Assembly (NCBI RefSeq): GCF_021729015.1
Contig: NZ_JAJQQZ010000002.1
Coordinates: 558,001 to 622,000 of the forward strand
DNA length: 64,000 nt
Origin: Halobacterium rubrum
GTDB lineage: Archaea; Halobacteriota; Halobacteria; Halobacteriales; Halobacteriaceae
Direction of reading: 5' to 3'
Both the position numbers and the translations under genes were made by a program. The notes under the pieces were generated by a model, which saw only the letters and a list, made by a program, of their open reading frames with translations, was not told the DNA's origin and did not search any database. Positions 13,231-62,870 of this stretch are shown here, one piece after another (positions within the stretch are counted from its first letter, which is position 1; each line of letters starts with the position of its first letter).

Positions 13231-13470
13231 CGTACCTTTTGCGCTGCGCTCGGTCGCTACACTCCCTCGCTCGGCAAAAGCTACGCTAAAAGCTTCCTCG
13301 CTCCCGTTGGTCGCTCGTCAGCCCGCGCTCCCTGGCTCACGGCTTCGCCGTTCGCGCAGACCGAGGCGCTTCGCACCTCGCGCCGGTCGCGCGGTGAACG
13401 GCTTCGCTCGGGTTCTGTCGAACCGCTCGCTCGCCGATGCTCAGCAGCCGGTTGGTCGATCCGTGTGGCA
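13231..13470. repeat. dispersed palindromic repeat element, copy A
   Basis: This non-coding stretch between nusA and rps12 shares ordered blocks with 62608-62870. The shared blocks are: taccttttg plus tgcgctcggtcgct at 13233-13256; an identical 21-bp block ggcaaaagctacgctaaaag+c at 13273-13293 (the other copy at 62708-62728); cctcgctcc; a gtgaac-g-ttcgctcggg-like block near 13394; and a gctcgc...gatgctc block near 13424-13443. Between the blocks lie short triloop palindromes such as ACGGC-TTC-GCCGT at 13339-13351. I see no reading frame with coding character in 13219-13662. Confidence 0.75.
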
Positions 13471-25522: not shown

Positions 25523-25594
25523 GGGCTCGTAGATCAGGGGTAGATCGCTTCCTTCGCAAGGAAGAGGCCCTGGGTTCAAATCCCAGCGAGTCCA
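25523..25594 (+). tRNA. tRNA-Ala (CGC)
   Basis: A 72-nt cloverleaf. The acceptor is GGGCTCG/CGAGTCC with the alanine identity G3-U70 pair and discriminator A. The anticodon stem CTTCC/GGAAG holds loop TTCGCAA (anticodon CGC), and the T arm is CTGGGTTCAAATCCCAG. CCA is not encoded. Its 3' end is repeated downstream at 25790 and 25921. Confidence 0.96.
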
Positions 25595-25995
25595 TACTTC
25601 TCGAGAACCGACGCGACGAGCGACCAGCGTGTCGCTCGTCCGTCGTTGCGAGTGCGGCGCGGCGAGTCGGGATTTGAAGCCCTGGAAGTCGCAACCGCGA
25701 GCGAAGCGAGCGGTCCGTCTTCCTTCGGGTTCAAATCCCGCCAGACCGGAGGTCTGGCGACCCTCGCGAACGCACAGCGTTCGCTCAGTCCCAGCGAGTC
25801 CATTCTTTCGCCCACTTCGTTCGCTCAGTCATTCCCTCGCAGGCTCCCCGTTCGCTGTGCTCACGGCTGTGCCGTTCGCACATTTCGAGGCGCGAAGCGC
25901 CTCGCAGCGCTCACGGGGATCCCAGCGAGTCTATGCTTCTCGAGAGCCGACGCGACGAGCGACCAGCGTGTCGCTCGTCCGTCGTTGCGAGTACG
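25582..25995 (+). repeat. tRNA-Ala 3'-end duplications (integration-scar-like)
   Basis: The 14 nt cccagcgagtccat ending tRNA-Ala recur at 25790-25803 and, with one change, at 25921-25934. From the first and third copies the match continues for about 75 bp (25582-25656 against 25921-25995) with only a few single-base changes, mostly transitions. The repeated block includes the inverted repeat gacgagcgac-cagcgt-gtcgctcgtc. Between the copies are further T-arm-like pieces (gggttcaaatcccgcc at about 25726-25742) and triloop palindromes. No gene is visible in 25595-26023 and no integrase lies in the window. Confidence 0.75.
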
Positions 25996-26023
25996 GTTCG
26001 ACCAGTCGGGATTGGCCGCCTCG

Positions 26024-37640: not shown

Positions 37641-38309
37641 ATGAGCCACGACTGGCGGGTCGTCGAGTCCCGCACCGAGTACGAGACGACGTGGTACGAC
37701 GGCGGCTACGACCGCGTCGAGCAGCCGGACGGCAGCGAGAAGGACTACTACTGGGCGGACCTGCCGCCGGCCGTGGTCGTCGTCGCGGTCGACGACGGCG
37801 ACGTCGTGTTCGTCGACCAGTACCGGCCGACCATCCGCGAGCAGTGCATGGAGCTCGTGGCGGGCATCGTCGAAGAGCGCGAGGACGACCAGCGGGCGTC
37901 CTCGGACGGAGCGAGTAGCGAGGGACGGAGTCCCTCGGGCCATTCGAGCGGGCGAAGCCCGCGAGAAGTCGGCGGAGCCGTGAGCCGCGGCGATGCCGTG
38001 CGACCCCACCCGGACCGCGAGTCGTACGTCGCCGCGGGCCGCCGCGAGCTCCGCGAGGAGACGGGCTTCGAGGCCGGCTCGGTGCACTTCCTCGAGGAGT
38101 TCTGGACGGCGACGGGGGTCCTCCGGCACAAGCGCGGCATCGTGTTCGCCGAGGACCTCACGGCGACCGACCGGGAGCTGGACGACAACGAGTTCCTCTC
38201 CGTCGAGCGCGTGCCCGTCGAGGACGCGCTGGGCGTGGCCCGGGCGCCGCCCGCCAACGACGCCACCATCGAGGGCCTGCTGCTCGCAGAGACCGACGGC
38301 TTCCTCTGA
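37641..38309 (+). CDS. Nudix hydrolase (ADP-ribose pyrophosphatase-like) with interrupted Nudix box
   Basis: This 222-residue protein resembles ADP-sugar pyrophosphatases: AVVVVAVDDGDVVFVDQYRP, then MELVAGIVEE, and after the box VHFLEEFWTATGVLRHKRGI. The Nudix box should read G-x5-E-x7-REuxEExGu. Here G75-x5-E81 is present and RELREETG is at 135-142, but 53 residues rather than 7 separate E81 from R135. The extra 46 or so (about 83-123) are Ser/Gly/Arg-rich. Their DNA holds perfect triloop palindromes like those in intergenic repeats. The frame is kept, so the protein may still fold, with the insertion as a surface loop next to the active site. Confidence 0.85.
   Translation: MSHDWRVVESRTEYETTWYDGGYDRVEQPDGSEKDYYWADLPPAVVVVAVDDGDVVFVDQYRPTIREQCMELVAGIVEEREDDQRASSDGASSEGRSPSGHSSGRSPREVGGAVSRGDAVRPHPDRESYVAAGRRELREETGFEAGSVHFLEEFWTATGVLRHKRGIVFAEDLTATDRELDDNEFLSVERVPVEDALGVARAPPANDATIEGLLLAETDGFL
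37887..38009. repeat. palindromic insertion inside the Nudix gene
   Basis: The inserted codons contain AGGGAC-GGA-GTCCCT (37921-37935) and GCGGGC-GAA-GCCCGC (37948-37962). The GGA and GAA triloops are of the same type as palindromes in the non-coding elements at 13.3, 25.9 and 62.7 kb. The length difference from a normal Nudix box is about 138 nt, a multiple of three. Confidence 0.65.
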
Positions 38310-62608: not shown

Positions 62609-62870
62609 GGTACCTTTTGCTGCGCTCGGTCGCTTCGCTCCTTCGTCTGCTCACGGGTGCATAGCGCCCGTTCGCACGGCCAGCGGGACCTCTGGTCCCG
62701 CTCGGCTGGCAAAAGCTACGCTAAAAGCACTCCTCGCTCCAGCGCGCCTTCGGCGCTTAGTCGCTTGTCGGCCTGCACTCGTTCGCGTCGCTCACTCGCG
62801 CAGTGAACCGCGTCGCTCGGGCTTTTCAAGCCGCTCGCTTGCGGATGCTCGTCGTCAGCTGGTCGGTCCC
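62608..62870. repeat. dispersed palindromic repeat element, copy B
   Basis: Between archaemetzincin and hflX (convergent), this carries the same ordered blocks as 13231-13470: taccttttg-tgcgctcggtcgct at 62610-62633, the 21-bp identical block at 62708-62728, tcctcgctcc near 62731, a gtgaac-g-gtcgctcggg block near 62803 and a gctcgc...gatgctc block near 62832-62850. Its palindromes differ from copy A: GCGGGACC-TCT-GGTCCCGC at 62683-62701 and GCGCC-TTC-GGCGC at 62744-62756. No coding frame is credible in 62609-62892. Confidence 0.75.

Follow-up and report, generated by a model that had tools for sequence, protein, structure and literature searches.

The gene for a Nudix hydrolase in Halobacterium rubrum holds, in frame, palindromic DNA that we read, with a probability of about 0.8, as a copy of a dispersed haloarchaeal family of small two-hairpin elements that enter protein genes and stay in frame. 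Members of this family share their DNA while lying in unrelated genes, their sites are empty in sister species, one strand and one frame dominate among them, their pairing covaries, and they occur nested. Copies in genes appear to be translated, and the encoded peptide would form a short, flexible, hydrophilic loop (of the SEGRSPSDRSSGRSPRE type) that the host protein tolerates on its surface. The family works like the palindromic elements of Rickettsia, a resemblance already proposed for this gene in the original prediction and supported by the occurrence of the same DNA in frame in unrelated genes and by the empty sites.

The Nudix gene and its expanded loop

The gene lies in a stretch of 64,000 nucleotides, the window, of a 3.07 Mb genome in 7 contigs (here G000). 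The features of the gene and of its insert are the following, in window coordinates.

37641..38309, + strand: Nudix hydrolase gene, 222 amino acids, ADP-ribose pyrophosphatase/NudE-like by family and structure-chain matches
37863..37865, + strand: Gly75, start residue of the Nudix box
37881..37915, + strand: half A of the outer, older insert, made of the inverted repeat GAGGAC...GTCCTC and a spacer ending in GCGAG; joined directly to the D half in Halobacterium genome G004
37916..37969, + strand: nested two-hairpin unit, 54 nt (18 codons), TAGC...AAGT; 70.3 bits over 37919-37968 with covariance model R1
37919..37937, + strand: hairpin 1, 8-bp stem and GGA triloop (CGAGGGAC GGA GTCCCTCG)
37949..37961, + strand: hairpin 2, 5-bp stem and GAA triloop (CGGGC GAA GCCCG)
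37970..37988, + strand: D half of the outer insert (CGGCGGAGCCGTGAGCCGC), aligning with CGGTGGAACCGCGAGCC of G004
38019..38069, + strand: rest of the Nudix box, intact (E127-SYVAAGR-REL-R-EE-T-GF)

Pfam and PDB matches, to Nudix/ADP-ribose pyrophosphatase families, flank the insert on both sides. The catalytic helix E-x7-REUxEExGU is present and complete, while the G-x5-E spacing is not kept: 51 residues separate G75 from E127, against the usual 5. The long segment itself had been seen correctly in the original prediction, where it was misplaced as 53 residues between the first Glu and REUxEExGU; the x7 stretch (SYVAAGR, after Glu127) is intact. An insert that breaks the catalytic helix is therefore ruled out and, since the loop sits just before this intact helix, the enzyme is probably active.

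In other genomes the G-x5-E segment measures 18 (G009), 21 (G006) or, in genome G044 of another family, 5 residues. A shorter but already expanded loop is present in 10 of the 13 Halobacterium genomes; in two others the loop has 45 (G004) and 57 (G012) residues. The excess over other families amounts to 46 residues (138 nt), in agreement with the extra DNA of about 138 nt estimated beforehand. Because congeners are already expanded (18 and 21 residues), the lineage-specific part comes to some 30-33 residues. A loop of similar length and unrelated DNA in all orthologues would have pointed to an old structural insertion; what we find is the short loop in 10 of 13 genomes, a smaller, related insert in G004 and a different repeat in G012. 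An old loop peculiar to the Nudix gene is ruled out by the short-looped orthologues together with the empty gatE sites described below. The repeat that occupies the same loop in G012 (L026) is longer, and its outer stem differs from that of G000 by a compensatory change (GAGGCC...GGCCTC and GAGGAC...GTCCTC, respectively).

Architecture of the insert

The insert is in the reading frame, and its two triloop palindromes, at 37919-37937 and 37949-37961, are perfect, as had been predicted. The unit consists of hairpin 1 with its 8-bp stem, a 7-nt linker, CGAG, hairpin 2 with a stem of 4-5 bp, and a second CGAG; the Nudix copy ends in AAGT. Its length is 54 nt when nested and 51 nt in a simple copy (gatE of G001), both multiples of three. 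The A and D halves occur without the 54-nt unit in the Nudix gene of G004 and in gatE of G001, and in the order A-unit-D in G000. As A+D and the 54-nt unit have the same architecture, A+D is probably a diverged relative of the unit. The nesting junction is fixed (GCGAG/CGGY), and both nesting flanks, CGAG before and CGGY after, are found in 23 of 115 motif contexts; the element ends themselves were read from few genes. These arrangements could have arisen by insertion of a unit into A+D or by insertion of the composite, from which the 54-nt unit was later lost precisely.

Empty sites in sister species

The same sites could be compared, filled and empty, in several genes of the genus. In gatE, 11 of 13 Halobacterium genomes are empty, G001 carries A+D (51 nt), and G000 carries A, the 54-nt unit and D (105 nt); aligned with a GatE chain of solved structure (2d6f_C), the query protein shows a break at the insert, where its residues run from 307 to 348 and those of the chain from 295 to only 297. 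The trm5 gene is empty, with identical length, in 11 of 13 genomes and has 114 nt added in the other 2. An endonuclease III-like gene has 105 nt in G009 and G011 and was read as empty in 5 genomes, and in the other 6 the protein matches break at the same residues. The purU site is empty in G004 and G007, the two genomes read with the pattern used there. Examination by eye of gatE and of the endonuclease III-like gene revealed no target duplication, 105 nt being added and the empty sequence being fully accounted for; nor did the ends at these two sites show prominent inverted terminal repeats, but only short similarity.

Dispersal of the family

A search of the genome for the insert within other genes, suggested together with the original prediction, recovered the same DNA in two genes, purU with 89% over 83 nt and gatE with 85% over 89 nt; matches in other places were shorter. 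A strict 22-nt motif allowing at most 3 mismatches gave 6 matches in G000 and 0 in the control; with at most 2 mismatches it is present in 12 of 26 genomes of the family Halobacteriaceae, and with 1 mismatch in 100 of 392 genomes of the order, again with 0 in the control. Scanning of GTDB contigs with the motif returned 74 stretches, 71 of which have haloarchaeal titles. The three bacterial matches (L081, L132, L151), which are included in the 115 motif contexts, lack hairpin 1 in register and are treated as chance matches. The motif has 0 matches in viral contigs and so there is no sign of viral spread.

With a covariance model of the unit, R1, all but one of the 13 Halobacterium genomes gave matches at E<=0.1, which sum to 224; under stricter filters, 10 genomes matched in a draw of 119 from the phylum, all belonging to the same order. 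R1 also bears out the claim that similar non-coding repeats exist in the window, where it detects three relatives of the unit, the first two of which were submitted to the coding call.

25857..25904, - strand: related to the unit (34.6 bits) but without a coding call, adjoining a tRNA-Ala gene
13333..13380, - strand: related to the unit (34.6 bits) but without a coding call
62647..62702, - strand: weak relative of the unit, 25.0 bits

The first of these lies in a region of the window (25523-26000) where the tRNA-Ala gene (25523-25594) is followed by a direct repeat of about 80 nt (near 25583-25660 and 25922-26000) and by further pieces resembling tRNA 3' ends, as from tRNA-targeted integration.

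To chance palindromes combined with codon bias in a GC-rich genome we give practically no weight. In 464 kb of G000, triloop stems of at least 7 pairs number 160, compared with 105 in a single Markov-3 resample; loops of 4-12 nt show the same behaviour, single triloop hairpins being about as frequent as those with other loops. Taken alone, a triloop palindrome is unexceptional, and it is the dispersed repeat that goes beyond chance. The motif controls (0 against 6 in its own genome, 0 against 100 of 392 in the order), the empty sites and the covariation described in the next section refute a chance origin of the family, ordinary as its single palindromes are.

Pairing of the hairpins

Hairpin 1 was left unconstrained by the search motif, and its pairing could be counted at 8 pairs in each of 115 contexts. 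Watson-Crick pairs fill 799 of the 920 cells; 1000 shuffles gave 562±9 with a maximum of 592, and sliding of the stem left at most 330 paired cells. Three of the pairs show three or four pair types in numbers. Alignment A1, composed of 36 of 37 chosen units (L161 was left out) and two AD units, agrees on this covariation, but is biased by preselection for at least 7 of 8 pairs; of the two tests, the count over the 115 contexts has the smaller bias.

In the 96 contexts where 6 or more of the 8 positions pair, 9 mismatches are GT, 7 are AC and 5 are of other kinds, with no G-U bias. Since selection on a hairpin in the sense RNA would favour GT, the pairing fits maintenance at the DNA level or a recent origin. 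RNA structure as the object of selection is ruled out by the similar numbers of GT and AC mismatches and by the lack of an Rfam family: no match reached the gathering score, and the single match below it falls outside the unit. The hairpin loops are often of the GNA type (GAA, GGA, GCA), and in single-stranded DNA triloops of this type have an unusual stability when a C-G pair closes them.

Reading frame and host genes

The 115 distinct motif contexts were classified by codon-position GC, a statistical call of coding DNA. Eighty-two were called coding, 72 of them in one strand and frame (S-G-R-S-P-R), and 33 were not called. Three Halobacterium genomes contributed 62 R1 matches to a second test (18 of 22 in G000, 18 of 34 in G009 and 26 of 51 in G011), of which 15 were uncalled and 47 called coding, 42 of the latter in this same frame. 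Among the 18 copies examined in G000, 13 are in protein genes with identical strand and frame, 1 is reversed and 4 are not called coding; 13 out of 14 in one frame has a binomial probability of 9e-10 at an expectation of 1/6, the pooled figures being less independent because some copies are orthologous. One G011 copy (1859125) was scored as being in another frame, its match having extra bases, and encodes the usual hairpin-2 peptide.

The 13 hosts in G000 are the Nudix gene, PurU, GatE, two Rad3-type helicases, CobN, CarB, a PurN-PurH fusion, a GlcD/GlpC-like oxidoreductase, PheT, HutH, MutS and PurC. Hosts in other genera include ValRS, IleRS (twice), MetRS, MerA, PurK, TrpB, methionine adenosyltransferase, phosphoglycerate mutase, RLI/ABCE1, aconitase, SufD and thioredoxin reductase. 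A family match, often one that spans the insert, was obtained for 34 of the 35 host proteins scanned, L145 being the exception. The reversed copy of G000 (C2:250919) lies in a gene that we take, from a motif, to be TruD. In L006 (near 1501) and L315 (G009, C1:315081) the unit is likewise reversed and in frame, at the same place of a gene, presumably truD, in two species.

Sites filled in several species occur in the two helicases, PurC, PurK, MerA and the TruD-like gene; they fit vertical descent or recombination as well as repeated insertion. In four genera (L090, L109, L119, L125) the unit occupies the same site of a mercuric reductase gene; one of the copies is on a plasmid, and the hairpin 1 sequences of these copies differ and are still mostly paired. 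In six contexts hairpin 2 has a GAC triloop, and this variant uses a different reading frame (RAGDARE); of the six, L057, L164 and L181 look like one gene, presumably gatA from a motif, and L156, L159 and L162 like another.

Of the six frames of the 54-nt unit, the one in use gives the most hydrophilic peptide (GRAVY -2.19 and -1.81), has no stop and gives a net charge of +1 or 0; another forward frame holds a stop. The simple gatE unit does not share this ranking, its most hydrophilic frame being one that is not used. The peptide of the AD unit has a net charge of -2.

These properties bear on the view that the insert is an old structural or salt-adaptive loop, that is, a functional insertion peptide of halophilic enzymes kept by selection at the protein level; such a peptide has reportedly been seen in a cysteinyl-tRNA synthetase. 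The hosts are indeed conserved enzymes, the peptide is hydrophilic, some sites are common to several genera and the Nudix loop was already expanded in the genus. We nevertheless consider this very improbable: unrelated genes share this DNA together with its covarying palindromes, orthologues exist without the insert, and the peptide of the 54-nt unit, with its charge of 0 to +1, is not acidic, even if that of the AD unit is at -2.

The host protein might also be made without the extra loop, the unit being removed from the RNA or skipped by the ribosome. The hairpins are strong, and untranslated palindromic inserts are known in yeast mitochondria (PMC6649704). Removal would require neither the strong preference for one frame and strand nor lengths in multiples of three, and we rate this still lower than salt adaptation.

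Proposed spread and mobilisation

In the mechanism that we propose for the mobile family, units would enter both genes and intergenic DNA, and those copies would survive that keep the frame of the host and encode a soluble loop. Copies in other frames would be removed by selection because their peptides are more basic or less hydrophilic, or because a stop interrupts them. Selection after insertion would explain the frame bias, given that the 54-nt unit is read in its most hydrophilic frame and that this frame is free of stops. More tentatively, the DNA hairpin may be recognised by a mobilising activity acting in a single-strand mode without target duplication; the lack of target duplication, the hairpins and the nesting in palindromes suggest a mechanism like that of IS605-type elements. 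Searches for the Y1 transposase (PF01797) found none in G000; this family is present in 7 of the 13 genomes of the genus and absent from 6, and mobilisation by a resident Y1 transposase in G000 is ruled out.

The main competitor needs no transposition-like activity: recombination, gene conversion or template switching at the palindromes of existing repeats could have spread the units. It agrees with the lack of a Y1 transposase in G000 and of target duplication, and with the perfect stems, the nesting at palindromes, the triloops that also occur reverse-complemented (TTC and GAA) and the related copies outside called genes. The clean additions of 105-114 nt at sites where sister species lack any repeat, however, require both a source and an insertion step. 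We give this explanation a minor share of the probability, and favour the mobile family.

Comparison with known systems

Earlier accounts of protein-coding palindromes treat them as peculiar to Rickettsia and a small number of further bacteria. The Rickettsia palindromic elements (RPEs) are likewise small, lie in frame in unrelated genes where they are apparently tolerated as extra protein, and have other copies outside genes. Two of their features are encountered here: an in-frame palindrome in several unrelated protein genes, and a preferred frame with a conserved peptide. Compared by description, the present family differs in having two short triloop hairpins per unit of 51-54 nt, in nesting at a fixed junction and in being archaeal; the only motif match in Rickettsiales (L151) is one of those without hairpin 1. 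The size of RPEs is given as about 150 bp (PMC10969869) and their repeats lose identity over time (PMC6649704), whereas the stems here stay paired through compensatory change.

REP elements, tagged by GTAG/CGTC and thought to be mobilised by RAYT transposases, are also short palindromes; they lie mostly between genes, although some are inside genes (PMC3733652), and our family differs from them in this habit and in the lack of a Y1 transposase in G000. Most nested copies start with TAGC, which gives GTAG at the left edge as in the REP tag; immediately before the stem, AGTAG was read in 29 of 96 contexts and other letters in most of the rest, and the tag may not be general. Perfect inverted repeats within translated genes are found as well in the mitochondria of nematomorphs, where both arms encode conserved parts of the protein and the palindromes reach 284 bp (PMC6649704); here the palindrome is an added loop.

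A full-text literature search, with most subscription journals outside its reach, returned no description of in-frame palindromic elements in archaea. We lean towards a broader proposal, with less confidence than for the insert itself: Haloarchaea would host a wide family of protein-coding palindromic mobile elements, the first in archaea, with hairpins kept by compensatory change, site-specific nesting and a mobilising activity still to be discovered. More than once, this family would have given core enzymes such as tRNA synthetases, GatE, MutS, CarB and purine enzymes an extra, translated loop. In archaea that can be cultured and manipulated genetically, and whose core genes exist naturally as filled and empty alleles, a family of this kind would allow direct tests of how selfish DNA turns into a loop of a protein, how the element moves and whether the loop costs or helps an enzyme. 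It is also a warning that loops of haloarchaeal proteins may be repeat DNA and not adaptations to salt.

The closest haloarchaeal parallels are the small mobile repeats SMR-A and the PATEs of Haloquadratum, which likewise show no target duplication. As far as the available part of their description goes (PMC3119063), SMR-A elements measure about 110 bp, to be compared with composites of 105-114 nt here, make no target duplication and target palindromes of other elements; they have prominent inverted terminal repeats, not evident in our family, and in-frame insertion into genes is not described there as a habit. In L093 (near 4899) and L172 (near 1500) the unit lies between CCCCACCCT and AGGGTGGGG arms resembling the end of an IS605-type element, and L175 (near 1500) has the 3' arm too; the arms around the unit in L093 and L172 recall the palindrome targeting by SMR-A.
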